NCBI RefSeq assembly: GCF_000421485.1
Contig: NZ_ATXC01000001.1
Coordinates: 558,001-622,000, forward strand
Reading direction: 5' to 3'
Source: Desulfurobacterium sp. TC5-1
GTDB lineage: Bacteria; Aquificota; Aquificia; Desulfurobacteriales; Desulfurobacteriaceae
Length of the DNA: 64,000 nucleotides
The notes beneath the pieces are model-generated. The model made no database searches, had not been told where the DNA came from, and worked only from the letters and a program-made list of their open reading frames with translations. Shown piece by piece: positions 15,729 through 30,616 of the stretch; positions within the stretch are counted from its first letter, which is position 1, and every line of letters starts with the position of its first letter. The translations under genes were made by a program, and so were the position numbers.

Positions 15729-16169
15729 ATGAAAAAACGATTGATGGAAATATACAGGGAACTTTTCAAAGAAGATTACGTGGAAAAAAGCATGGAAAGA
15801 TGTAAAAATTCCAGATGTTTGTGGCTTGTTGTTGACATTTCATCCGTTTCAAGTATTGTTTCTGCCGATTTGGGAATAAGAAGACAGCGGGAAAAAAGAC
15901 CGATGATAACATCCAAAAAGGTGAAATCAAACTACATCTGTACGTTTCTCACAACAAAAAGCAGACATTGCGGTTATGACCTTGAACCTGTCAGAGTGGA
16001 TTTACAAAAATGTAATAAACTTTGTGATGAATTTCACTTCATCAAACAGAGTTACAAATTCATCTATATAGATTTCAGGAGAAATACACGCAGGAAAGTT
16101 TTTAAAATTCCAGAATACTTTGTAAAAGACGAAAATCTGTTTAAATTCTGCGGAGTATGCGGTGAGTAA
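15729..16169 (+). CDS. Unknown 146-residue cysteine-rich protein, first gene of the CalpS-CalpT-CalpL-like block
   Basis: I do not recognise this protein. It contains three close cysteine pairs (CKNSRC near 25, CNKLC near 93, CGVC at the C terminus), suggesting metal binding. The middle part (RPMITSKKVKSNYICTFLTT) and the end (HFIKQSYKFIYIDF ... FKFCGVCGE) have a faint PemK/MazF-toxin rhythm, which I treat as a weak hint only. No good ribosome site precedes the ATG at 15729, and ATG 15744 is an alternative. It overlaps the sigma-like gene by eight bases, so the two should be co-expressed. It is a candidate extra component of the signalling cascade. Confidence 0.6.
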   Translation: MKKRLMEIYRELFKEDYVEKSMERCKNSRCLWLVVDISSVSSIVSADLGIRRQREKRPMITSKKVKSNYICTFLTTKSRHCGYDLEPVRVDLQKCNKLCDEFHFIKQSYKFIYIDFRRNTRRKVFKIPEYFVKDENLFKFCGVCGE

Positions 16170-16764
16170 CTTTCTGTCACCAGAAATCATCGACAAGATA
16201 ACTTCCGTTTTAATCAAGAAGTTAACGGAAAAAGAAAAGCAAATTATACTTAAGCAGTATGGTGAATGCAGCTTTCAGGTTATAAGGGCTGAAGTTTCTT
16301 ACATCCTTACGGAGAAAAAGGAAATTATTGAGCAAAAAAAGGAAGTAAATTTCAGTTTCCTGTACACTATAGTACGCAACTACTTTCAGGATAAATTTTT
16401 AAAGGGTAGAATCCAGCACATTTTAAAAGAAAAGTCTCTTCCCGAATTTTCAGGGAAAAGTATAAGCCGCTCAGTCATAGCATTCCTTTTTGCAGAAGAG
16501 ATGGTAGAAATAGTAGCTAACCATCTCTCAAGCAAGGAACTTGAAACACTATGTTGGATGATGTTCAACAAAAAGTATCCCTCTGAGGAAAATCCATTCT
16601 TATCAGCCCTATCCAGAGAGGCCAAATATAAAAGGTGGAATAGGCTAAAGCCAAAACTGAATTCTCTCTTTAAGGAATATGGATCTTTAAACGAAGAAGA
16701 ATTTGTGCTTTTCTGTGAACTCTACATGTCAAAAATCTGTAAGAAATTTCGTTTAAAAGGGTAG
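16162..16764 (+). CDS. Sigma-factor-like protein, CalpS-type
   Basis: A 200-residue protein with an ECF-sigma-like plan. Residues about 65-85 (SFLYTIVRNYFQDKFLKGRI) resemble sigma region 2, whose usual form is LYxIxRNxxxDxxR. Residues about 122-172 resemble region 4, ending in a basic helix (EAKYKRWNRLKPKLNSLFKEY). It starts with GTG at 16162 behind GGAG and is followed by the CalpT-like and SAVED-Lon genes. In Sulfurihydrogenibium, CalpS is a sigma factor held by CalpT and freed when CalpL cuts CalpT. The same role is inferred here. The sequence is divergent, so the sigma call is moderate. Confidence 0.65.
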   Translation: MSNFLSPEIIDKITSVLIKKLTEKEKQIILKQYGECSFQVIRAEVSYILTEKKEIIEQKKEVNFSFLYTIVRNYFQDKFLKGRIQHILKEKSLPEFSGKSISRSVIAFLFAEEMVEIVANHLSSKELETLCWMMFNKKYPSEENPFLSALSREAKYKRWNRLKPKLNSLFKEYGSLNEEEFVLFCELYMSKICKKFRLKG

Positions 16765-16769
16765 AAGGT

Positions 16770-17564
16770 ATGGCTACATTGAATGAATTATTGAAGGACT
16801 ACATTGAAATTAATGGAGAAGTAAAGGTGATGTTTGAGCATAGAAAAAACGTGACAGAAGTTCAAATAGGCGATGTTTTAGAGTTTACAACAAATAAAAA
16901 TCCTATACTTGTCTGTGTATTAGATAGTGCTTTTCCCTGCGAAACCGTTCTCATGTCCTACCTCTGGGAAATGGCAACTTCCAGCGACCTGATAGTCAAC
17001 TTTGAACATCCTTTAAGGGACAAATGGATTTTGCAAGGTGATATGGTTCTTTACATAACAGAAAACTTGCTTGGCTCGGCAAAACTTGTCGGAAGAATTG
17101 ACAAAAAAGATGTTGAAATTATAAAGCGCTATTTAGAAGACGAAACTTTTTACCTTCCGAAAGATAGATGCGGAATAGGGGATAAGCTGGCCGTTAAACG
17201 GGAATTCAAATTATTTGAAGCCAAAAGGAGCAGGGAATTTCTCTTCAACCTTATAAGAGAAATAGAAGAAAAGGAGAAAACGCTCTTTTACGTATCGGGT
17301 AAAACGTTAGAAATGCTGCCAGCAGTAGCCGGAAGAGAGAAAGAGGCCGTAGCGATGGAAGATTTTATTGTTTTCAATCACGAAAATAAACTCAGAGTAA
17401 AGGTAATAAATAGCAGTATTATAAACAAACCGGCACTAATAAAGGTACTTAACATGGAACTTTACGTTGATAAACTGCCGGAGGAATTTATCATAGAGTT
17501 TGAAAGGCCTGTAATGAGTAACATTGAGTACATTGCCAAAACAATTTCCATAGAAGGTCGATAA
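16770..17564 (+). CDS. CalpT-like anti-sigma protein, predicted substrate of the SAVED-Lon protease
   Basis: A 264-residue soluble protein lying between the sigma-like and SAVED-Lon genes, in the place and size range of CalpT, which binds CalpS and is cut by CalpL into about 23- and 10-kDa parts. A plausible exposed cut region is the small-residue linker AVAGREKEAVAME (about residues 185-197), which would give fragments of similar sizes. The C-terminal part is a separate small beta-rich domain. The N-terminal MazF-like fold of CalpT cannot be confirmed by eye. The TAA shares a base with the ATG of the protease gene, so the pair is coupled. Confidence 0.65.
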   Translation: MATLNELLKDYIEINGEVKVMFEHRKNVTEVQIGDVLEFTTNKNPILVCVLDSAFPCETVLMSYLWEMATSSDLIVNFEHPLRDKWILQGDMVLYITENLLGSAKLVGRIDKKDVEIIKRYLEDETFYLPKDRCGIGDKLAVKREFKLFEAKRSREFLFNLIREIEEKEKTLFYVSGKTLEMLPAVAGREKEAVAMEDFIVFNHENKLRVKVINSSIINKPALIKVLNMELYVDKLPEEFIIEFERPVMSNIEYIAKTISIEGR

Positions 17565-19033
17565 TGGGCTGGTTTGGAAAATTAATGACAAAAGAAATAG
17601 AATTAACTACAGAAGAGACAAATAAACTAATCAGAAGCGGTGAGGTTGACGAGGAAGACCTTCCCTTTCTTTTAAAGGCTGTTAAAGAAAAAAGTCTTCC
17701 CTGGTCAACAGCTTTTGAAACTTTCTATGCTATTAAAAACTTCAAGCACTTTAAACGACCTAAACTATTTAAAAACTTATTTGGACTTTCAGAACAGGAA
17801 ATTTCTGATCTCTTTTCAAAAGAAGTAGTAAAAGTTAAATTCCCTGTTGTAAAATATGGAAAGGGTAAAATAATAACGGCACACCTGGTACCTCTTCAGA
17901 ACTCCGTTTTAAACTTTTCGAAAGTAGATGATGAACTGCTAAGTGTAATTAAAAGAGCAACGGGAAAAGGATTTGCTGTTACATTTGATTCTCCTTTTAG
18001 TCAGGACTCGTTTATGCTTGCTGTCGTGGCGGGGCTACTTGCAGAAGATAAACACTTTCTTTCTCATCTCAGTTTCACCGGAAGTGTTGATTGTTACAGA
18101 AATATTCTTTCTGTGGGTCTTATCGGCGAAAAAAAGAAGATAAGTGAAGAGCAAAATCTAAAACTTATAACTGCTGAAGACGTCAAAAATCTCAAACAAT
18201 TGAAGTGCTATCTCAAACGAAGTATTCCTGTACCTTTCCCGCTAATGGTCGGAAAACACAAAGAAGCCGTAAAAATTTTCTTTAGAAATTTTGAGAAAGA
18301 AACTAAATTAAATTGTGATGCCGTGTCGAAGTTTTCCGGTATTTCCCTTTCCGATATGGGTGTAGTTAAAGGGAATTCCCTGGAAAACTCCCTCGAAGCC
18401 TTCCACAAACTTTTAGAAGAGGAATTTTCCAGTAAACTTTTAAAAGTTACAGGGAGAAGAGAAGATGCAGTATTTCATATTACAGGTGTTGTCTCATCAC
18501 TGATGTACGGAGCCGGTATAATTTTCGGGGTAAGAAAAAAAGCTGTCCTCTATCATTATCAGGACGGTGAATATCATCCGATACTCGCCATAAGTAGAGA
18601 ACTCAAAGAAATAAAACGCAGTAGAAACTGGATTAAAACAAGCCAGATAGAAAAAGGAAGCAATAAAGAAGCCGCAATTACTCTTCACATAGCAAGCCAT
18701 AATCCTCTCGGTTCCACCAGGGCTTTTGTAAAAAATTATCTAAAAAATGCATCCCATTTTTATATTACACTAAAGGAGAACACCGGTAATGTACCTTTAA
18801 ATCGGGAAATATGGAAAACCGTTGTTTCAGAAATCTATTCTGAACTAAATAGACTGCGAAGCGAGTATATGGTCGAGAGATTCCATATATTCTTGAGCAT
18901 TCCATGTCCGATGGCTTTTGCTCTCGGAGCATGTGCCGGAAAGTTTATACCGGCAACCATATACAACTATATTCCAGAAAAGAACAGTTATTCTGCCGTA
19001 ATAGAAACAGATAAGTTAAAAAATATTTTTTAA
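17564..19033 (+). CDS. SAVED-domain Lon-like protease, CalpL-type cyclic-oligoadenylate-activated effector
   Basis: A 489-residue protein with a Lon-like protease domain (about 90-340) and a C-terminal SAVED sensor (about 345-489). In the protease part, DSPFSQDSFMLAVVAGLL followed by TGSVDCYRNILSVGLIGEKKK follows the Lon active-site layout, giving a Ser149-Lys190 dyad. The 41-residue spacing equals that which I recall for CalpL (S152/K193). The SAVED end is recognisable by HIFLSIPCPMAFALGACAGK and the following Y-rich strand. In CalpL, cA4 binding to SAVED drives filament formation and cleavage of CalpT. No transmembrane helix is evident here. Cas10 begins 78 bases downstream. Confidence 0.8.
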   Translation: MGWFGKLMTKEIELTTEETNKLIRSGEVDEEDLPFLLKAVKEKSLPWSTAFETFYAIKNFKHFKRPKLFKNLFGLSEQEISDLFSKEVVKVKFPVVKYGKGKIITAHLVPLQNSVLNFSKVDDELLSVIKRATGKGFAVTFDSPFSQDSFMLAVVAGLLAEDKHFLSHLSFTGSVDCYRNILSVGLIGEKKKISEEQNLKLITAEDVKNLKQLKCYLKRSIPVPFPLMVGKHKEAVKIFFRNFEKETKLNCDAVSKFSGISLSDMGVVKGNSLENSLEAFHKLLEEEFSSKLLKVTGRREDAVFHITGVVSSLMYGAGIIFGVRKKAVLYHYQDGEYHPILAISRELKEIKRSRNWIKTSQIEKGSNKEAAITLHIASHNPLGSTRAFVKNYLKNASHFYITLKENTGNVPLNREIWKTVVSEIYSELNRLRSEYMVERFHIFLSIPCPMAFALGACAGKFIPATIYNYIPEKNSYSAVIETDKLKNIF

Positions 19034-19111: not shown

Positions 19112-21583
19112 ATGGAAAAAGAATTTGAAATCGTTGCCACAGCAGCTCTCCTTCACGATATAGGCAAGTTTTATAGAAGAGCTGAAGGCAAAAGAGATTC
19201 TCATCAAGTTATGTCCGAGAAAGCAGTTTTAGAAAAACTTTCCGCTGGCCTGAAAAAATTCTTCAGGGATAATGAAATCAAGGAAATAGCCTTACTTGTG
19301 AGAAATCATCATTACGGAAGAGAAAAACTGGATAATGTTGAACTCACAAGCTCTCTTCAGGCTCTGATAGATGGTGATAGGCACAGCGCCGGACTTGATA
19401 GGCACAACATAGAAGAAAAATATGATGAGAAGCAAGTTACAGAAAGAACACCCCTTGTTTGTATATTTGAAGAGATTGCTTATAACAAAAAGCGAATAAA
19501 TGATATCTCCGAGCTTCTTTCAAGTGATGTTTATGTTTACAAATTTAAAAAGCTTTCTCCGGAGAGTGCTTTTCCCGAAAAGAAAAGCAGATATTACGAG
19601 GACGCGAGAAACGCAGATTACCGGCAACTTTGGAAAAAATTTGTTGACGAGTTCAACTCAATAGAAAAAACTGCAAATTTCAACCTATTTTATGAAGCGA
19701 TGAAATCCGCTATTATCAGATACACGTGGTGTATTCCTTCAAATACCTATGCACCGAGGGGATTCTCCATACCTGACGTTCCTTTATGCGATCATTTGAC
19801 CTCTTCTGCCGCAATAGCTGTTGCTTCTTACCGCTGGCGCCAGAGTTATTCCGAAAAAAGGCCAAAATATATTCTACTCTCCGGTGATTTTTCAGGAATA
19901 CAGAACTTCATATTTTCAAGGTACGGAGAATCAAAAAAGTATGCGGCAAAAATTTTAAGGGCCAAATCCCTGCTTGTCAGTTTTGCCCTTGAAACCATAA
20001 TTACCCGGATAGCAGAAGAGTTTGAAGTAAACAGAGCTTCTCTTCTTTTAAATGCAGGTGGAAAATTTATGATGATTTTACCCGATATTGATGCAGAATC
20101 CAGAATTAGAAATATTAAACATCAGCTTGAAGAGGCACTTATAAAAAATCACTATGGACTTCTTTCAATTAATCTTGCCTATGTTAAATTAGAACCGGAA
20201 GATTTTGAAAAGGGAAAATTCCTTGAAAAATTAAAGGAATTACATATTGAAGAAGGAAAGCAGAAATTCAAATCCTTTTCCATCAAAAACACGGAACAGT
20301 TTGCCGTTAAAAATTACATTCAATCTCTCATGGGTAAGTCCCCATGTTCAATATGCGGAATCCGCCCTACCGGCAAAAATAAAGAAATATGCAGTTTATG
20401 TGATTATTTAAAGAACCTCGGAGAAAAGTTACCAAAAGCAAAAGCAATAAAAGTTACACCGAATCATGAACTCTTCCCCCTTCCAGACATAAAAGCTTAC
20501 ACGGATACAAATAATCTGATTTCTGAATATAGAAGTGCACCGGATGATACTCTCATTTTTTCCATAGGTGAGTCAGTACCGGGAATTCCAGCTAAAAATG
20601 TGAATGTCCATCTACCGGTCAATAAGCCCGGCGCAAATTTATCTGAAATAATAAAAGAAGAAATTATTAAAAGATGCGAGGAAAATCCAGATATACCGAC
20701 AGTTAAAACTTTCTGCCAGTTGGGTATTGAATCCCTAATTTCAGATGAAAAAGGATTAAAAGGAAAACCCTTCATCGGTGTTCTTAAAGCAGATGTTGAC
20801 AATTTAGGTTTTATTTTTATGAAAGGTTTTGTCGGAATAGAAGGTTCTGAAGATAAAAGCAGGGAAAGTTTATACTCCGTTTCCCGCGTTTTATATCTCA
20901 GCAGAATGATAGATTACTTTTTCTCTGTTGTTCTCACCAGCAAATTTGAATTGAAGGATAAAGGATTCCACAACATCTATACCGTATTTGCGGGCGGTGA
21001 TGACCTGTTCCTGATAGGACCGTGGGAAACAATGTTTAAATTTTCTGAAGAGATGGAAAAAGAATTCAAACGGTATGTTGCCTACAACCCCGATATTACA
21101 TTTTCTTCCGGTATTTTTGTTACAAAACCGGACGTTCCCGTATATTTCCTTGCTGAAGGAGCAGAAGGTGAGCTTGAAAAATCGAAAAAAAAGAAGAATC
21201 GCATCACTGCTTTCGGAAGGACGGTAACCTACGACGAATTTAAAGAGCTTCTCCGGATAGCTGGAGAACTTGAAAGAGAAATGGATGAGAACAACGTTTC
21301 AACCGCCCTTGCGTACAAACTTATAAAACTTTCCGACATGGCAAATTCCATACCCGAGGACGGAAAGAATGCTTTGTGGAAGGCGTATCTGAGTTACCTT
21401 ATAAGCAGGAACTACGGAAAAGAAAATCATAAAAACGACGAAGAGCACATCACTTCGTTCCTGAGAAAGTGGATTAACTACATAGAAATTTACTCTGAAA
21501 ACATCAGCAGAAAAGAAAAAGACAACAAACTTTATATAGCATTAGTTAAAGCCCTTTACAGGAGGAGAAGATATGGAAACTAA
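19112..21583 (+). CDS. csm1: Cas10/Csm1, large subunit and cyclic oligoadenylate synthase
   Basis: The 823-residue Cas10 of a type III-A effector. It carries an N-terminal HD nuclease motif (LLHDIGKFYRR, about residues 14-24) for target-activated ssDNA cleavage, a zinc-ribbon pair (CSICG ... CSLC, about 413-431) and the Palm-domain cyclase motif GGDD at 628-631, all intact. It should therefore make cyclic oligoadenylates on target RNA recognition and switch on the effectors encoded on both sides. GGGGA precedes the ATG. The csm2 start lies inside its last codons. Confidence 0.97.
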   Translation: MEKEFEIVATAALLHDIGKFYRRAEGKRDSHQVMSEKAVLEKLSAGLKKFFRDNEIKEIALLVRNHHYGREKLDNVELTSSLQALIDGDRHSAGLDRHNIEEKYDEKQVTERTPLVCIFEEIAYNKKRINDISELLSSDVYVYKFKKLSPESAFPEKKSRYYEDARNADYRQLWKKFVDEFNSIEKTANFNLFYEAMKSAIIRYTWCIPSNTYAPRGFSIPDVPLCDHLTSSAAIAVASYRWRQSYSEKRPKYILLSGDFSGIQNFIFSRYGESKKYAAKILRAKSLLVSFALETIITRIAEEFEVNRASLLLNAGGKFMMILPDIDAESRIRNIKHQLEEALIKNHYGLLSINLAYVKLEPEDFEKGKFLEKLKELHIEEGKQKFKSFSIKNTEQFAVKNYIQSLMGKSPCSICGIRPTGKNKEICSLCDYLKNLGEKLPKAKAIKVTPNHELFPLPDIKAYTDTNNLISEYRSAPDDTLIFSIGESVPGIPAKNVNVHLPVNKPGANLSEIIKEEIIKRCEENPDIPTVKTFCQLGIESLISDEKGLKGKPFIGVLKADVDNLGFIFMKGFVGIEGSEDKSRESLYSVSRVLYLSRMIDYFFSVVLTSKFELKDKGFHNIYTVFAGGDDLFLIGPWETMFKFSEEMEKEFKRYVAYNPDITFSSGIFVTKPDVPVYFLAEGAEGELEKSKKKKNRITAFGRTVTYDEFKELLRIAGELEREMDENNVSTALAYKLIKLSDMANSIPEDGKNALWKAYLSYLISRNYGKENHKNDEEHITSFLRKWINYIEIYSENISRKEKDNKLYIALVKALYRRRRYGN

Positions 21584-21998
21584 ACACCATCCCGATCTGG
21601 AAATTATCACAAAAATGTTTAGAGAATACCTTTCCGCAGACCGGAAAAAGCAAGCAAAAGTGTTAAAAGATACAGCAGAAAAAGTGGCAAAATTGTTTGC
21701 AGAAGATAAAACGTCAAAACACCAAATTCGCAAGCACTACCATAGACTATTGGATATAAAAGAAAGAATAAAAACGAAAAATACGGATGACATTAAGGAA
21801 TTCTATCCAGAAATAGCAATGACCGCAGCTTATGCAACATATGACAGAAGCAGAAATAATATTGGAAATGCCTTTGAAAGATTTTTAAAAGAACTAACTA
21901 ATGAAGCAATCAACAGCAATAAAGATAACTTTCTCAAGCTCATGACTCTTTTTGAAGCAGTTGTAGGTTATGCAAATATGTATGTTAAGAAAAATTAA
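21573..21998 (+). CDS. csm2: Csm2, small subunit of the type III-A complex
   Basis: A 141-residue, mostly helical protein in the csm2 position. The charged N-terminal segment, the QIRKHYHRLLDIKER helix and the ending ...LMTLFEAVVGYANMY are typical for Csm2, which lines the crRNA-target duplex in the filament. It overlaps cas10 by 11 bases with a strong GGAGGAGA site. Presence of csm2 rather than a cmr5-type gene supports subtype III-A. Confidence 0.93.
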   Translation: METKHHPDLEIITKMFREYLSADRKKQAKVLKDTAEKVAKLFAEDKTSKHQIRKHYHRLLDIKERIKTKNTDDIKEFYPEIAMTAAYATYDRSRNNIGNAFERFLKELTNEAINSNKDNFLKLMTLFEAVVGYANMYVKKN

Positions 21999-22012
21999 AA
22001 CTGGAGGAGAAG

Positions 22013-22705
22013 ATGGAAAGATTAAAAGAAATAGTCACGATTGAAGGAACTGTTAAACTTGTCACGGGTCTTCATATAGGAGCGGGAAATGATGAGATAA
22101 AAATAGGCGGAATAGACAATCCTGTAGTTAGGAATCCTATTACCAATGAACCTTATATTCCGGGTTCTTCCATAAAGGGAAAAATGAGATTTCTTCTTGA
22201 GTGGTACCTTGGAAAAGTAGATATGCAGGGAGGCAAGCCTTTTTCAAACTTTGATGGAAGTAAAGAAGCAGAAGTTATTTTGAAAATTTTTGGTGTTTCC
22301 GGTTCTGAAGAAAACAGGATAGGCCCTGCGAGAGCGTCTTTTTATGATTTGTTTTTAACAAAAGAAAGCAGGAAGCTTTTAGAAGAAAGAGTCGGTGCAT
22401 TAATGACAGAAGATAAAGCTGAAGTGATGGTTAACAGAATAAAAGGAACCGGAGAAAATCCAAGGCATACGGAAAGGATTCCTGCAGGTGCAGAATTTAA
22501 ATTTAAGCTTGTTTACAAAATTTTTGACGAAGAAGATGAAAAACTGTTTGAATATCTACTTAAAGGTTTGAAACTTCTTGAAATAGACGGAATCGGTGGA
22601 AGTGTATCAAGAGGTTACGGAAAGATTAAATTTGAGAAACTTAAAAAGAAAACCTTAATAGGCAAAGGAGAAGAAGATATAGACCTTGAGAAAGTGGAGC
22701 TTTAA
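22013..22705 (+). CDS. csm3: Csm3, Cas7-type backbone subunit and target-RNA nuclease
   Basis: A RAMP protein of 230 residues forming the crRNA-binding backbone and cutting target RNA every six bases. The catalytic Asp is present (D35 in GGIDNPVVRNP), as are IPGSSIKGKMR (about 50-60) and the glycine-rich IDGIGGSVSRGYGKI near the C terminus. An intact D35 means RNA target cleavage, and so switch-off of cyclic-oligoadenylate synthesis, should work. Ribosome site GGAGGAGA six bases before the ATG. Confidence 0.96.
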   Translation: MERLKEIVTIEGTVKLVTGLHIGAGNDEIKIGGIDNPVVRNPITNEPYIPGSSIKGKMRFLLEWYLGKVDMQGGKPFSNFDGSKEAEVILKIFGVSGSEENRIGPARASFYDLFLTKESRKLLEERVGALMTEDKAEVMVNRIKGTGENPRHTERIPAGAEFKFKLVYKIFDEEDEKLFEYLLKGLKLLEIDGIGGSVSRGYGKIKFEKLKKKTLIGKGEEDIDLEKVEL

Positions 22706-22706
22706 A

Positions 22707-23672
22707 ATGGAAGCAATAAAATTAGTTATAGAACCATTAACACCATTTTATACACCACTACAGAGCAATACACTCTTACAGAGCGATACACTTTTTGGAG
22801 AATTCTGCTGGCATTACAGATTTTTATATGGTAGAGAAAAGCTTGAGAACCTGATTAATAACTATGACACGGAACCTGTCATGGTTTTCTCCAACGGCTT
22901 TCCCGAAGGATATCTGCCGTTTCCTGTTATACCTTTCAGAAACCTGCCAGTAGCTGAGAAAAAAGACATTGGCATATACAAAATTCTCAAGAAGTTTAAA
23001 AAGCAACCCTTTATAGAGAAAAAGCTCTTGAGGGAACTGATAGAATCAGGAAAAGAAATAACCGCTGAAATTCTCTTTGAAAACTTTACCAGGAAATCAA
23101 ATGAAAAAGAAGCTCTACCGTCTTACAGAAAAGCCAAACAGATGCACGTTACAATCGACCGTAGGTTCGGAAGTCACCTTGAAGGCCATCTGTTCGATAA
23201 GGAATACCTGTTTTTCAACAAAGGTTCGAAGATTGAAATCTACTGTAAGTTTAATTCAAAACGGATAACTCTGGAAGAAGTAGAACAAACATTTCATTTT
23301 ATGGGTTTGAACGGATTTGGTGGAGAAAAAACAACCGGTAAAGGAAAATTTGAAATTGTGTCTATTGATGAATCTGACCTTCCGGAAACAGCAAATCCAA
23401 ACGGATTTATCTCTCTTTCAACCGGAATGGTTAAGGAAGGCGAAATAGAAGACTACTATGCAAGATTTTTCACCAAGTTCCCCAAACATGGACCTGAAGT
23501 TTGCCCCGAGGGAATAAACATATTCAAGAACCCTGTAATTCTCACGAAAGAAGGGTCTGTATTTAAATGCAAAGAAAGAAAAGAGGTTTACGGTAGAATT
23601 TATAAGATTTCTCAGAATGATAGCTATATCCACTGTGCAAAAATACTTCCACTGTTTGTGAGGTTGCAATGA
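22707..23672 (+). CDS. csm4: Csm4, Cas5-type subunit capping the crRNA 5' end
   Basis: A RAMP protein of about 321 residues that binds the crRNA 5' handle and contacts Cas10. The N terminus (TPLQSNTLLQSDTLFGEFCW) and the glycine-rich loop FGGEKTTGKGKFEI (about residue 210) fit Csm4. The ATG at 22707 is preferred over an upstream TTG because GGAG lies seven bases before it and the csm3 stop immediately precedes it. It overlaps csm5 by four bases. Confidence 0.95.
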   Translation: MEAIKLVIEPLTPFYTPLQSNTLLQSDTLFGEFCWHYRFLYGREKLENLINNYDTEPVMVFSNGFPEGYLPFPVIPFRNLPVAEKKDIGIYKILKKFKKQPFIEKKLLRELIESGKEITAEILFENFTRKSNEKEALPSYRKAKQMHVTIDRRFGSHLEGHLFDKEYLFFNKGSKIEIYCKFNSKRITLEEVEQTFHFMGLNGFGGEKTTGKGKFEIVSIDESDLPETANPNGFISLSTGMVKEGEIEDYYARFFTKFPKHGPEVCPEGINIFKNPVILTKEGSVFKCKERKEVYGRIYKISQNDSYIHCAKILPLFVRLQ

Positions 23673-24808
23673 AAAGCTATAAGTTAAAATTAACTGTTGA
23701 AACACCAACTCATATAGGAACTGGAAATACGTATTACGATCTTGAATACACGGTAAAAAACAAAAAATTTTATGTAATTAATAAGGCTAAATTTTTTAAA
23801 CGCCTTGAAAAACTCGGGAAAATTGACTTATTTACAAAAATAGCAGCAAAGGGAGATGAATCGTCTATAATTGAAATAAGAAAACTTGTCCATAACAATT
23901 TCAATCCGGAAGACAGTTTGGCTAATTTTGAAATTGATAAAGATGCCCTATCAGATCTTGAAAAAAAATTATTCAGATTTGCAAACATAGAAAGGCATAG
24001 AAGCGGCAAAATAATGGGGATTTTAAACCGGATGAAAATAAGAAAAACTTACAAGAATCCCTTATCTTTTAAACCTATGATTCCGGGAAGCAGTATAAAA
24101 GGTGCAATAAGGACAGCACTTATTAGCTATTTAATATCTAAAGATGAGATACTATTAAAAAAGCTAAGCACTATTTGGGCAAAATACAGCAGAAATCCCA
24201 AGAAAGCCATTAACAACATGAATAATGAATTAATATCTCTGGCACTGCGCAATTTTGAAAGAAAAATTAAACCTGACACCACCAAGGACATTTTACGGTT
24301 CATAAAAGTTTCAGATTTTATGCTTGTTGATGGAGGAATAAAGATAGGTAAAGCTGAAATGGTGCACAGAAAAAAGAAAAAAACAGGTCTTCCTGTGTAT
24401 CTTGAATACATAACGGAAAAAAGCGTTTTTGAAGGAACAATAACAATAGACAAAAAAGCAGCCGAAGAGATATTCGGAAATGAGAAAAATTTCAGAGAAG
24501 AAAATTTCAGCATAGAAAACATAATGAAATACCTAAGAATACACTATGGGAAGAATACATATTACAACGGCGAAAGAGAATACTTTAAAGACTTTATCAA
24601 CTGGAAATTAAGACAGTACAAGCATAAAAAAGAAGCACCTATCAAGGTCGGTTTTCATTCCGGCTCCCTTGCCGTAACAACCGGCATTAAGGAAATTACG
24701 AAGATATACGACAAGGAAAAGAAACAGTATAAAGCACTGCCGCCGCTTACCCTCTGGACAATAAATAAAAAGCCTATGGGCTGGTGCTATTTAGAGGTGA
24801 TTGAATAA
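23669..24808 (+). CDS. csm5: Csm5, RAMP subunit at the crRNA 3' end
   Basis: A 379-residue RAMP protein that caps the other end of the Csm3 filament and is linked to crRNA 3'-end trimming. TPTHIGTGNTYYDLEYTVKN at the N terminus and IPGSSIKGAIRTALISYL (about 137-154) are the standard motifs. It overlaps csm4 by four bases and shares one base with the cas6 start, so expression is tightly coupled. Confidence 0.95.
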   Translation: MKSYKLKLTVETPTHIGTGNTYYDLEYTVKNKKFYVINKAKFFKRLEKLGKIDLFTKIAAKGDESSIIEIRKLVHNNFNPEDSLANFEIDKDALSDLEKKLFRFANIERHRSGKIMGILNRMKIRKTYKNPLSFKPMIPGSSIKGAIRTALISYLISKDEILLKKLSTIWAKYSRNPKKAINNMNNELISLALRNFERKIKPDTTKDILRFIKVSDFMLVDGGIKIGKAEMVHRKKKKTGLPVYLEYITEKSVFEGTITIDKKAAEEIFGNEKNFREENFSIENIMKYLRIHYGKNTYYNGEREYFKDFINWKLRQYKHKKEAPIKVGFHSGSLAVTTGIKEITKIYDKEKKQYKALPPLTLWTINKKPMGWCYLEVIE

Positions 24809-25593
24809 TGCCGGGAAAGATCAGGATTATATTTGAAGCCGATAATCCAGTTCCTGTATCGGAGCTTTCTCCCGACAGGATTCACGGATTGTTTTTCTCA
24901 ATACTTGACAGTGAAACAGCCGGAAAACTTCACAGTATAAACGGGCTGAAACCATTTACCCTATGCTGTCCCGTATTTTTTAGAAGTAAAAAGGAAACGG
25001 TGAAAAGATTTTTTGTAGAGATAACATTCCTTGAGGATTGGTTATTATCAAAAACAACAACAGCTGTTATCTTAAATTCAAGAAACAGAAATTATTACTT
25101 AAACAGTTATAAAATAAAACTTTTCAGAACATTCAAAATAGATTCGGATGACATAATAAGCTATGAAAACATAAAAGAGAAAGCAAACACCCGCACAAGA
25201 GATATTATACTGGACTTCATAACGCCAACGACATTTAAAAGAGGTAAATATGATTATCCGCTTCCGGAACCTTCTCTCATATACAAAAGCATCCTTAAAA
25301 AATGGAATCGATTTTCAGGGGAAAGACTGCCGTCAAAGGAAATCCTTGAAAAAATCGGGAGAGATATACAGGTTGCCGGATGCTGGATAAAAACGACAAA
25401 GCTTGAAATGGCATCGCTCAAGAAAATAACCGGATTCAGGGGACGAATAGTCTTTTACAACGCATCTAAAGATGCTGAATTCAACAGGATAATTACTCAG
25501 TTAACCCTGTTTGCTCCCTTCTGCGGTATAGGAAGAAAAACAACCATGGGATTCGGAAAAGTTAGAACATTCTTTAATCTTCAGGGAGGCTAA
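24808..25593 (+). CDS. cas6: Cas6 CRISPR RNA endoribonuclease
   Basis: Cuts the array transcript within each repeat to give the 8-base 5' handle. The 261-residue protein has a double ferredoxin-like plan with the C-terminal glycine-rich loop CGIGRKTTMGFGKV. A likely catalytic His lies in the N-terminal SPDRIHGLFFSIL helix. With the repeat read on the minus strand, the expected handle after cleavage is AUUGCGAC. Confidence 0.92.
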   Translation: MPGKIRIIFEADNPVPVSELSPDRIHGLFFSILDSETAGKLHSINGLKPFTLCCPVFFRSKKETVKRFFVEITFLEDWLLSKTTTAVILNSRNRNYYLNSYKIKLFRTFKIDSDDIISYENIKEKANTRTRDIILDFITPTTFKRGKYDYPLPEPSLIYKSILKKWNRFSGERLPSKEILEKIGRDIQVAGCWIKTTKLEMASLKKITGFRGRIVFYNASKDAEFNRIITQLTLFAPFCGIGRKTTMGFGKVRTFFNLQGG

Positions 25594-25594
25594 C

Positions 25595-26860
25595 ATGGCT
25601 GAAGTTTTTGCAAGTTTTCTGGGCACAAGCAATTATAAGGAAACAACCTATTTTCTTTACGGTGAAAAGGTGAGAACAAAGTATATTCAGTCGGCTCTGC
25701 TTCAAATTCTCAACAGTAAAGAAGGGAAAGAGAGAGAAAGTGAAAAAATTTTCAGAATTTTCCTGACACCTACGGCAAAGGAAAAGAATTGGCCGTCTCT
25801 TAAATCCGAAATTGAGAAACTATCCATTGATATAAAATTGGAGCCGGTTTTTATAGATAAAGATATAATCAGTTCCGAGACGCAAATGTGGCAATTATTT
25901 GAAAAATTAGCCTCATCTTTCAATGAGAATGAATCGGTAACTTTTGATATTACCCACGGTTTTAGATTTTATCCTATGATGTTGATGGTTATGCTGAGCT
26001 ATTTAAAGCTGACGAAGAATATAAAAGTAGCCGGAATATTTTACGGTGCCTGGGAAGCAAGAAATAAGATAGATGGCACGGAAGTAACGCCAATACTTGA
26101 ATTAACGGATCTCGATAAACTTTTTGACTGGATAGTCGGAACCCAAAATTTCATCAAGTATGGTATTTCCGAAACTCTCACGGAACTGTTAGAAAATGAA
26201 AGCAAAAACATCCTTAAAAAGACAAGGGGAAAAGATGAAAACGCTCAAAAGTTAAGAGATTTCTCCATACATTTAAAGAGATTTACCGAGTCAATTAGAA
26301 CCTGCAGAGGGAAAGAGATAATTTCGGGATTTTCAAAAGAAAAATTTTCATGCAAAAATGAAAACGGAAAAGAGATTGAAATAACAGAGCCGGAATCTCT
26401 TGATTACGAAATACTGAAAAATTTTTCCAGAGAAATCGAGATAGAAAACGGAAAATTTTCAAAACTATTAAAAAATCTCTTAAAAAAAATTCAATTTTCT
26501 TTAAAGGAATTTTCGACCGGAAGAATAGAAAATCTCCTGAGCGCAGCAAAGTGGTGTTCTTCTCATAATTTAATCCAGCAAGGATATACATTTTTAAGAG
26601 AATATATATCAACCCTTCTTGTGAAAGAGAATTACGGAACAGAAAAGATATTTTGTCGTAATACAAGAAAAGAAGCTGAAGAGAAAAGCATGTCATCATC
26701 TAAATGGAAGAATTTGCTGAAAACAATGGCCGATTTTCGCAATGATATTAACCATTGTGGAATGAGAGAAAAAAGCTTAAAAACGAAAGCACTCAAAGAA
26801 CAACTTGAAAAATTAATCGTAGAAACTGAAAAGATTTTAAAAAACAATGACAATCATTAA
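25595..26860 (+). CDS. CARF-HEPN ribonuclease of the TM1812/Csx2 family
   Basis: A 421-residue ancillary effector. The CARF sensor spans about residues 1-180, with an early LGTSNY motif and DITHGFRFYPMM near residue 117, the TM1812 signature. The C-terminal HEPN domain has the ribonuclease motif R382-NDIN-H387. Such proteins bind cyclic oligoadenylates made by Cas10 and degrade RNA nonspecifically. GGGAGG precedes the ATG, and it is the last gene of the csm operon, 183 bases before the CRISPR array. The exact ligand (cA4 or cA6) cannot be told. Confidence 0.9.
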   Translation: MAEVFASFLGTSNYKETTYFLYGEKVRTKYIQSALLQILNSKEGKERESEKIFRIFLTPTAKEKNWPSLKSEIEKLSIDIKLEPVFIDKDIISSETQMWQLFEKLASSFNENESVTFDITHGFRFYPMMLMVMLSYLKLTKNIKVAGIFYGAWEARNKIDGTEVTPILELTDLDKLFDWIVGTQNFIKYGISETLTELLENESKNILKKTRGKDENAQKLRDFSIHLKRFTESIRTCRGKEIISGFSKEKFSCKNENGKEIEITEPESLDYEILKNFSREIEIENGKFSKLLKNLLKKIQFSLKEFSTGRIENLLSAAKWCSSHNLIQQGYTFLREYISTLLVKENYGTEKIFCRNTRKEAEEKSMSSSKWKNLLKTMADFRNDINHCGMREKSLKTKALKEQLEKLIVETEKILKNNDNH

Positions 26861-27043: not shown

Positions 27044-27831
27044 ATTTCAATCCCTCTCATTTATCAGGGCATTTCAATAAAAATAAAAAAATTAATAATA
27101 AATTAAAATATAAAATGTCGCAATCCCTCTCATTTATCAGGGCATTTCAATTGAAAATCACGAAAGTAGCAGAAAGAGCATTTGATTATCCACGTCGCAA
27201 TCCCTCTCATTTATCAGGGCATTTCAATAAAGTTAAAGTTTATTTAGGATAGGGTGGCGTTATGTCAAGAAAGTCGCAATCCCTCTCATTTATCAGGGCA
27301 TTTCAATAAACAAACCCTTGTTAAACTGAAAGGGGATTAAGAAAATGTCGCAATCCCTCTCATTTATCAGGGCATTTCAATCTAAAGAAGGACGGAAGAG
27401 AATTTTAGGAGATATAAAGAGTCGCAATCCCTCTCATTTATCAGGGCATTTCAATAAACAAACCCTTGTTAAACTGAAAGGGGATTAAGAAAATGTCGCA
27501 ATCCCTCTCATTTATCAGGGCATTTCAATAAGTAGCAGCCTGGGAAACGCCAGAAAATATTTACACAAGAGAGTCGCAATCCCTCTCATTTATCAGGGCA
27601 TTTCAATGATTCCTTTTGTAAATGAACATATTCCAATTCTGCCTGTCGCAATCCCTCTCATTTATCAGGGCATTTCAATATAAGGGATTCATTGAAGAGA
27701 TAAAGGAAGTTGCACAAGTCGCAATCCCTCTCATTTATCAGGGCATTTCAATATTTCTTCAAGGACGACCCTAAAACTGTAGCCCAGACAATAATTGTCG
27801 CAATCCCTCTCATTTATCAGGGCATTTCAAT
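27044..27831 (-). CRISPR. Type III-A CRISPR array, 11 repeats and 10 spacers
   Basis: The 35-base repeat begins GTCGCAATCCCTCTC on the plus strand and ends GGCATTTCAAT. Repeats start at 27044, 27117, 27194, 27273, 27347, 27421, 27495, 27573, 27645, 27718 and 27797. Spacers are 37-44 bases. Read on the minus strand the repeat ends GGGATTGCGAC, giving an AUUGCGAC handle like known type III handles. The leftmost copy is degenerate in its first four bases (ATTT for GTCG), as expected for the trailer end. Transcription is therefore judged to run right to left. Spacers four and six are identical, and spacer one contains no G or C. Confidence 0.97.
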
Positions 27832-27958
27832 AGCGGCAAATTTAACCGCCTATCTTCCAAGGCTTCCAAAACTTGAAGTTTTTATAAAAAGCTAATATCC
27901 CTTGTATCTCAAGCTTTCCGAACATACAACTTTTTCCATATTCTGCTTGCAAAGACCG
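27832..27958 (-). promoter_or_regulatory. CRISPR leader region
   Basis: The 127 bases between the last intact repeat and the outer cas2 gene, on the side opposite the degenerate repeat. On the minus strand it has TTGAGA followed 17-20 bases later by a TTTTATAAA run, a possible promoter, and a GCGG...CCGC hairpin directly at the repeat border. Leader identity is inferred from position and repeat orientation. Confidence 0.55.
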
Positions 27959-28551: not shown

Positions 28552-29486
28552 TTTTTAAGCTCCTCTTTAAGGTATTTAAGAAAGTTATTAACCTGGGAGA
28601 AATACGAATCATCTCTGTTGTGAATGACCACATCGGTATAATACTTTAAAAAGACTTTCAAAGGCTCATTTTTCAGATAGACACCTCTTTTCTCTTTTAT
28701 AAAGTCGTCCTTTTCAAAAAATCCGTCGTTCAAACACCTGAAAACAAGAGCCGTCAAAAAGGGCCTGACAATCTCAAGAAGGTCAGAACAAAGGGCTGCA
28801 TGTCTTCCTCTTTTAATATGGAAAAATCCAAAATACGGATCTAATCCGGCCGAAATCACAACAGAATGTAAAACGGAATAGAAAACAGTGTATGAAAGGC
28901 TTAAAAGCGCATTAACAGGATCTTCAGGAGGATAATAAATTCTTCTCTCAAAGTAAAAAGGACTTTCATTGAAGGAAGCGAGTTTTGAAAAGAGAAATCT
29001 GCTCATGTTTCCGTCAATACCCAACATTGATTGATTATCAGAAGCCGACAAGATAGATGCTTCTACGCTTTCTTTCCATTCCATTACCGGTGCCATGCTC
29101 ATTTTTGACGGAACGTAAAGTCCCGAAAGCACATTCACTATGTTGTTTAATTTTTGTAGCAGTAAGTTTTTAGTTAATTGAACCTTAAATTCCTCGTTAC
29201 TGAATTTGGCATACTGAAGAAGTCGAAACTTATTGTCACTTCCTAAAAATTCCGGATATACTACACTTATTAACTTTCCAAACTTGTTCATAATGAACAG
29301 GAACTTACCTTTTGTTGAAAGAAGCCGAATAACGGGAACAGTAACATTGACATAACCCATGATAAAAACATGACTTACAGCTCCAAGGGGAACCCTTGAT
29401 CTCTTTTCACCGATGTCAATCACAAGCTGGCTGCCGTCTTTAGAAACCTTTGCACCTTTGGAAGTTACAAAGAGAAATCCTTTCAT
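28548..29486 (-). CDS. cas1: Cas1 CRISPR integrase
   Basis: The 312-residue integrase that inserts new spacers. The ATG at 29486 is chosen because it forms TGATG with the upstream stop and starts the standard Cas1 N terminus (MKGFLFVTSKGAKV). The C-terminal metal site shows His in FGFFHIKRGR and Asp in CSDLLEIVRP. The first ligand, normally Glu in GIEG, is Asp here (GIDGNMSRFLFSKL). That is a conservative change and activity is still possible. There is no fused reverse transcriptase. Confidence 0.93.
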   Translation of the reverse strand: MKGFLFVTSKGAKVSKDGSQLVIDIGEKRSRVPLGAVSHVFIMGYVNVTVPVIRLLSTKGKFLFIMNKFGKLISVVYPEFLGSDNKFRLLQYAKFSNEEFKVQLTKNLLLQKLNNIVNVLSGLYVPSKMSMAPVMEWKESVEASILSASDNQSMLGIDGNMSRFLFSKLASFNESPFYFERRIYYPPEDPVNALLSLSYTVFYSVLHSVVISAGLDPYFGFFHIKRGRHAALCSDLLEIVRPFLTALVFRCLNDGFFEKDDFIKEKRGVYLKNEPLKVFLKYYTDVVIHNRDDSYFSQVNNFLKYLKEELKK

Positions 29487-30616
29487 CAGTGCCAGTCCCC
29501 CGATATTAAATCCTCTACTGTTAAAATCTGCAAATCCATAAGGTTTGCCCTTTTGGTTAAAAACTTTAAAGAAGTGTATGCAGACCAAGCTTCTTTATAC
29601 TTTTTCCCTTCCTCAGAGTTTAAAAACTTTTGCCAATCTGAATCTCTGCGATCAAACGGCTTTTTAGGCATGGAAGGAAAAGCTTTTACAGAAGGTCTCT
29701 TTGTATTTAAAACTGCAGGCGCTATGCACAGATAGCCTTTTCCGAAATCTCCACCTATCCTTTTGGTAAGTTCATGAAGTTCATAAAGATGTTTAGAGAA
29801 AACATTGATGTTTTTCCCTGTCTTGCAAGAAAACAGATGAAGTCTGTTATTTTTTACAGCGATAACATCAATTTCATTTACCACGTCAGAATCGTACCAG
29901 TTTATTACAACACCGATGTGAACGTCATAAAAACCTCTCTCTATAAGTTTGAGAAAAACAAATTCTTCAAACCATTTACCTCTTAAATAGCCTTCGTCAA
30001 AAACAAGGTATTTACCGCCGTGAGGTTTAATAACTTGATATTTAACGGCAAGAGAGTAAAAATCCGGCGGAAAAAGACCTTTTGGTAAGAATTGGCCCTG
30101 AATTTTGTTAAGAATCAAAGTAAATTTTTTATAGTTAAAAGCTACGTAATAAGTCAATGCCTTCCTTTCAACAATTTTACCTATTTCCTGAACTTCCGAC
30201 TTTATCTTAAACCCGTACATTGCGGAATGAATCTCAACATCAAGCAAGTCATTTTTTATCTCTGCAACGATTTCACCGTCTAAAGAGAGGAGTTTTCCAT
30301 CGGGCGTGTAATAAATAACTTTATCCTTCCCGGCAATATCAAACAGCACCATAGCGGTGTATTTCGTTCCGCAGTTGAGAAGGTAAAGGACATCACCGGA
30401 AATGTCAGAAACCGAAGAAACAATGGATTTCCTGTTGTAAGGTTCTATGGTCTTAATCTCAACTTCTATTCCGGAGTAGGTTAAAACATTTTTTAAAAAT
30501 TTTTCAAACTTCCTGACTTTTGGTGTTGAAAGGAGAAGAATCTTCTCCGGCTTCAAAGTTAAAGCCGTTACAACTACAGGAAATGTTTGGGTTGAAACAG
30601 GCGAAACTAAAATCAA
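29486..30616 (-). CDS. CARF-PD-(D/E)XK nuclease, Card1/Can2 (DUF1887) type
   Basis: A 376-residue ancillary type III effector. The N-terminal CARF fold runs to about residue 140, with the ligand loop LLNCGTKYTAM (about 79-89). A linker follows, then a nuclease domain with GKWFEEFVFLKL (213-224), NEIDVIAVKNN (247-257) and LHLFSCKTGK (259-268), the DUF1887 active-site strands with E248, D250 and K265. The usual Glu of the ExK motif is Ser263. Can2/Card1 enzymes nick DNA and/or cut RNA when bound to cA4. It is the first gene of the minus-strand cas1-cas2 operon, with a base-sharing stop/start with cas1. Confidence 0.88.
   Translation of the reverse strand: MILVSPVSTQTFPVVVTALTLKPEKILLLSTPKVRKFEKFLKNVLTYSGIEVEIKTIEPYNRKSIVSSVSDISGDVLYLLNCGTKYTAMVLFDIAGKDKVIYYTPDGKLLSLDGEIVAEIKNDLLDVEIHSAMYGFKIKSEVQEIGKIVERKALTYYVAFNYKKFTLILNKIQGQFLPKGLFPPDFYSLAVKYQVIKPHGGKYLVFDEGYLRGKWFEEFVFLKLIERGFYDVHIGVVINWYDSDVVNEIDVIAVKNNRLHLFSCKTGKNINVFSKHLYELHELTKRIGGDFGKGYLCIAPAVLNTKRPSVKAFPSMPKKPFDRRDSDWQKFLNSEEGKKYKEAWSAYTSLKFLTKRANLMDLQILTVEDLISGDWH

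Follow-up and report, generated by a model that had tools for sequence, protein, structure and literature searches.

The closest described system to the locus reported here is the tripartite CalpL/T/S cascade. In this cascade CalpT is cut and CalpS is released, and neither the target genes of the response nor a direct antiviral arm has been identified in the open-access literature that we searched. CalpT has been described as MazF-like (PMC9704534). A further point of comparison is the PADLOC model PDLC01080 'C3a162', of unknown function; the C3a162 set is reported to go back to a survey, published in 2019, of accessory genes of type III systems. Here, we describe a conserved fourth component of the known Calp system, a protein that we call X and that probably has a MazF fold; its function is inferred. 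X is unmentioned in the open-access Calp literature searched, which covers CalpL, CalpT and CalpS only, and a mention in the original Calp papers is not excluded.

The DNA analysed (the window) is a stretch of 64,000 nucleotides from Desulfurobacterium sp. TC5-1, of the Desulfurobacteriaceae, with Thermovibrio and Desulfurobacteriaceae MAGs as its named relatives. According to the ORF list of the window, X (15729-16169, + strand) starts with ATG and encodes 146 amino acids; its assignment as a protein of predicted MazF/PemK fold rests on the ORF, the family, the fold and conservation. X is the first gene of a Calp operon on the + strand. It is followed by a calpS-like gene for a sigma-like protein (16162-16764; GTG start; PADLOC HTH), a calpT-like gene (16770-17564; PADLOC CRISPR-T) in which NP replaces the RP of MazF, and calpL, which encodes a Lon-SAVED protease (17564-19033; PADLOC SAVED_LON_TM, E 9.8e-141; Pfam SAVED). 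A type III-A block, cas10-csm2-csm3-csm4-csm5-cas6-csx1 (19112-26860, + strand), lies 3' of the operon. The GTG of calpS (16162) shares 8 bases with the 3' end of X, and GGAG, a ribosome-binding-like site for calpS (16152-16155, + strand), is located within the final codons of X, which encode a C-G-V-C motif. The start of calpS fell between -31 and +9 from the stop of X in 45 of 45 loci, so that the two genes overlap or abut in every case (the window's own overlap in this count was taken from the ORF list), and most of the 45 have an arrangement at the junction similar to that of the window. Compared with its closest relative (68% protein identity), X has a dN of 0.196, a dS of 1.65 and a dN/dS of 0.12, with 34, 21 and 60 differences at codon positions 1, 2 and 3, and its reading frame is open throughout the relatives. 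These results collectively demonstrate that X is a real protein-coding gene under purifying selection. Elsewhere in the window, a CARF-PDDEXK (Card1/Can2-like) gene is present near the type III locus (29486-30616, - strand) and Csx1 is encoded at 25595-26860; with CalpL, these are likely to make three cyclic-oligoadenylate-activated effectors in one region.

A search with a single query sequence found homologues of X with open frames in 15 of 101 relatives, and a 47-sequence family profile detected X in 59 of the 136 genomes scanned across the phylum. In this phylum scan, 69 of the 70 X matches were directly 5' of calpS or ended at a contig edge. For 61, one of which is a decayed locus (G077), CalpL lay no more than 4 kb downstream in the same orientation. 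Another eight ended at a contig edge or close to one; calpS was visible in six of these, and in two nothing was left to see. The remaining match, in G048, is a truncated relic, and this genome lacks Calp. CalpL was searched independently of X across the same genomes, the contigs being searched with a smaller, less diverse alignment. Matches to CalpL without X were mostly fragments, contig edges or SAVED proteins lacking other Calp genes; two (L056 and L109) are of unclear status. There are two clear exceptions: one intact Calp locus, in G046 (L089/L113), has CalpS and no X, and the second locus of G003 (L081) has CalpT-CalpL and neither CalpS nor X. The order X-S-T-L also occurs in Calditerrivibrio (Deferribacterota, L152), and X precedes calpS in the same operon core (L071:4859-5335) of G043, which we take to be Sulfurihydrogenibium YO3AOP1, the source of tripartite CalpL/T/S. 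Two tandem X genes stand before one calpS in Thermocrinis-like genomes (L016, L055, L101, L164). No relatives of X were found in phages, plasmids or IMG/VR. Taken together, these results show that X has a conserved place in the calpS-calpT-calpL operon, as expected of a Calp component, and is tied to CalpS by gene order, coupling and loss; a physical association of the proteins is inferred.

An earlier note on this stretch had claimed an ORF at 15729-16169 that encodes 146 residues, starts the block and overlaps the sigma-like gene by eight bases, and all of this held. Its claim that this is a fourth gene, coupled to a Calp-like cascade, also held, on synteny and junction evidence, and its claim that the gene is undescribed nearly did, since 20 of the 59 X proteins are recognised by C3a162. 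Homologues situated mostly away from type III loci, or a frame not conserved in relatives, would have refuted the claim of coupling; the homologues sit in Calp loci and the frame is conserved. The co-occurrence with SAVED-Lon genes that it proposed as a check was seen for the 61 of 70 X matches with CalpL downstream.

Two remnants or variants were seen apart from the intact loci. The relic (L105:6595-6843, on a contig of 1,743,135 bases) encodes 83 amino acids, 72 of which align with an intact X at 90% identity, and adjoins a radical-SAM (MoaA-like) gene; judged from sequence alone, it is a remnant of a lost Calp locus. The divergent CalpT-CalpL pair of L081 may represent a form of Calp that relies on a different effector.

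Window X had no matches in Pfam, NCBIfam or PADLOC, and no member of the X family reached the cut-off of Pfam PemK (PF02452). A first AlphaFold model, of window X with 15 sequences (pLDDT 84), gave no match in a fold search. A second model, of the L071 family member with 59 sequences, had a pLDDT of 88.4 and a pTM of 0.82, with five consistent models. Its best match in the PDB was E. coli MazF (E 0.029, probability 0.89), followed by MazF-mt6 and MazF-mt3 with CcdB close behind, and in a viral model library a PemK-like protein came first (E 0.0049, probability 0.99), with a PemK/MazF toxin (0.95) and an endoribonuclease (0.95) among the other leading matches. Furthermore, the X profile matched a PemK profile from the same phylum with P 0.002, aligned on the RP...TT motif, and three X clusters took ranks 1-3 against PemK among 19 families from these loci. 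These results suggest that X has a MazF/CcdB barrel fold, a prediction that we hold to be probable; it comes from the L071 member, and the fold E-values are modest (0.005-0.03). A PDB search with the X sequence profile returned just chance matches to leucine-rich repeats, which were discarded.

The positions at which MazF carries its catalytic residues are conserved in X. R57 and P58 (codons at 15897-15902, + strand) are each conserved in 59 of 59 sequences, R57 aligning with the catalytic Arg of MazF, and residue 75 (T75 in the window, codon at 15951-15953, + strand), which aligns with the catalytic Thr, is Thr or Ser in all 59. In MazF-sth, the homologous Arg and Thr are essential (PMC10893535). 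CalpT has Arg at the MazF catalytic position in 0 of 35 sequences. Since R57 and T/S75 are kept while all but one sequence are only ~14-39% identical to the L071 member, an active site is more natural than a role in binding only. The family also shares a four-Cys site, formed by C95 (16011-16013) and C99 (16023-16025) in one half (16011-16025, + strand) and C141-G-V-C144 in the other (16149-16160, + strand); Cys is present in 59 of 59 sequences at C95 and in 57 at each of C99, C141 and C144. The first pair in the window protein, C25/C30, is Cys in only 9 and 12 of 59, mostly in the window's own family. We think it likely that the four conserved cysteines bind zinc, which is inferred from the Cys pattern with no metal data. 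X was also considered as a zinc anti-sigma (ZAS) protein and rejected: H-x3-C-x2-C is unmet, residue 137, four before C141, being Leu, and the predicted core is mainly strands.

The earlier note had counted three close Cys pairs, which is literally true of the window protein; just two are a feature of the family. The weak PemK/MazF rhythm that it sensed was the right lead, borne out by the fold, the profile comparison and the conserved Arg and Thr/Ser positions, and the AlphaFold comparison with MazF/PemK that it proposed succeeded with the L071 model and retrieved nothing with that of window X. As to its guesses at function, a toxin-like effector is supported as far as the predicted MazF-type fold goes, with RNase activity inferred; a zinc-dependent regulator fits the four conserved cysteines, again by inference; and an anti-sigma helper is not excluded, X following CalpS in presence and absence.

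Our main reading, to which we give a probability of roughly 0.5, is that X is a zinc-bound partner of CalpS of the MazF type that cleaves or binds RNA; binding, zinc and RNase activity are all inferred. X would be translated in coupling with CalpS and act together with it, binding CalpS through the same kind of surface as CalpT uses and being kept quiet within the CalpS complex. When cA4 leads CalpL to cleave CalpT, X, whether released or newly made, would cleave RNA or at the least bind to it, so that the transcriptional response would gain an RNase branch. X is missing from the second locus of G003, which also lacks CalpS, and this speaks for the reading; the G046 locus, with CalpS and without X, speaks against it. 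No MazE-like antitoxin gene is found upstream of X, which is the first gene, and no conserved small antitoxin ORF was seen before it; in L011, L013, L014 and L015 its upstream neighbour is a divergent cas10. In the published work the cascade runs on CalpL, CalpT and CalpS only, which means that CalpT can be cleaved in vitro without X. Because X precedes calpS in nearly every carrier found and has a predicted MazF-like fold, the published three-protein Calp is probably missing a part.

A candidate promoter motif was found near these genes. In nine loci (L011 -10984, L013 -9741, L014, L015 +4851, L065 -5836, L068, L070, L073 and L103), as compared with 0.1 in shuffles, the form [AT]A[AT]CG-N17-[CT]TGAC is found 10-58 bases ahead of X; this motif was picked after being seen. 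As an independent check, sites of a strict form, AACG-N16-TCTGACA, were counted: the 56 Calp-positive genomes contain 91 and the 45 Calp-negative genomes 13, and 41 of the 91 sites are within 20 kb of Calp versus 2.2 expected. About 17 of these 41 are copies in calpS 3' ends (hand count from lists). CRISPR arrays lie no more than ~430 bases downstream of the motif at eight sites, two in G008 and one each in a Persephonella MAG, G026, G052, G054, G074 and G019 (L011 -7023 and -5115, L150, L178, L068 +9742, L202, L206 and L210), whereas none was found on its opposite side within 400 bases. In addition, the motif precedes cas1 in two Thermovibrio-type genomes (L013 +4070 and L014 +3349), with the relaxed form in one. 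Window X has no CalpS-type motif upstream; the window has only an antisense copy, AACG-N17-TTGAC (16728-16753, - strand), in the 3' end of calpS and aimed at X. Conservation at the DNA level was seen in this region of about 40 calpS loci (an NGT codon plus T, a TCA Ser codon and xTG before the TCA), and the antisense strand reads AAC-N18-CTGAC. The key Arg codon is CGT in 15 of 16 sequences versus 7% in calpS genes generally, the Ser codon is TCA in 37 of 38 versus ~25%, and Gly and Cys are invariably GGT and TGT; binomial P values are ~5e-17 for Arg CGT and 8e-22 for Ser TCA, with relatedness ignored. The strict form had no match in G043, and a classical GGAAC-type ECF promoter is absent before X. 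The motif, including the antisense copy aimed at X, resembles an ECF-type promoter and is a candidate for one; its use by CalpS is inferred, and X, CRISPR arrays and cas1 are, on the motif, a possible CalpS regulon. If the motif is right, this regulon becomes testable.

Two further observations concern the motif. On one contig (G085, C143; L197), four copies occur within 2.5 kb on one strand (4879, 5239, 6713 and 7290, - strand), mostly without a long ORF directly downstream. In the window, the CRISPR array downstream of csx1 (27048-27832) has no CalpS-type motif in front.

A bolder reading, which we regard as no more than possible, takes Calp to be a four-part switch in which two MazF-fold proteins compete for CalpS: CalpT, a dead, cleavable MazF fold, and X, with an intact catalytic pair and the zinc site. 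cA4 would then both reprogramme transcription and release an RNase, and CalpS would drive X, CRISPR arrays and cas1 from the promoter AAC-N18-CTGAC and limit itself by the antisense promoter inside calpS.

The main and serious rival is that X partners CalpS but has no catalytic role, being either a co-sigma factor or an additional anti-sigma factor whose MazF-type barrel and zinc site form a module for binding a protein or RNA polymerase; X would set a threshold or aid CalpS at promoters, and Arg and Thr would be retained for binding. In its favour, X follows CalpS more tightly than CalpT-CalpL, X and calpS overlap or abut at every junction counted, an antitoxin gene is absent, and MazF-like CalpT is already the operon's anti-sigma factor (PMC11417357; PMC9704534). 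Against it stand the complete retention of R57 and T/S75 at such low identity and the lack of the Arg in CalpT, which needs binding only, and on balance we lean modestly away from it. We consider it unlikely that X is an operon regulator, an RNA-binding leader protein that tunes translation of calpS or else the candidate transcript running antisense across both genes. The first position of X, the calpS ribosome-binding site within its final codons, the candidate antisense promoter in calpS and the CalpS-type motif before X in nine loci are in line with such a role; against this, only the sequence points to an antisense transcript and there are no data on a target element. That X is a chance ORF or a decaying gene without function, as the want of any direct family-model match for window X might suggest, is all but excluded by purifying selection together with conservation and synteny across the phylum.

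The reading of X as a MazF-type partner of CalpS can be set against the known systems. X shares with the MazF/PemK/Kid mRNA interferases (PF02452; CcdB-like fold) the same predicted barrel, a similar size, the RP that opens a core strand and the Thr/Ser that closes the next one, at the MazF catalytic positions. X differs from them in its four-Cys site, which classical MazF lacks, its N-terminal helices, the absence of a Pfam PemK score and of a MazE gene, and its tie to CalpS. CalpT (CRISPR-T) is in the same operon and cascade as X and has the published resemblance to MazF, whereas it is longer (~265-320 aa), lacks the catalytic Arg and is the substrate of CalpL; direct similarity between the X and CalpT profiles was not significant (P 0.1-0.2). 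The presence in X of MazF catalytic residues where the named MazF homologue lacks them offers a direct two-mutant test. C3a162 and X are the same family, the best match being the Sulfurihydrogenibium-type X (E 4e-58), and the C3a162 model, to which no function, fold or Calp assignment is attached, fails to recognise two thirds of the family, window X (0 hits) among them. X is in nearly every such operon found, apparently including the type system, yet is missing from the accessible published description. The operon core of the YO3AOP1 CalpL/T/S system matches that of the window, and in G043, if this genome is YO3AOP1, the system published as three proteins has X in front of calpS.
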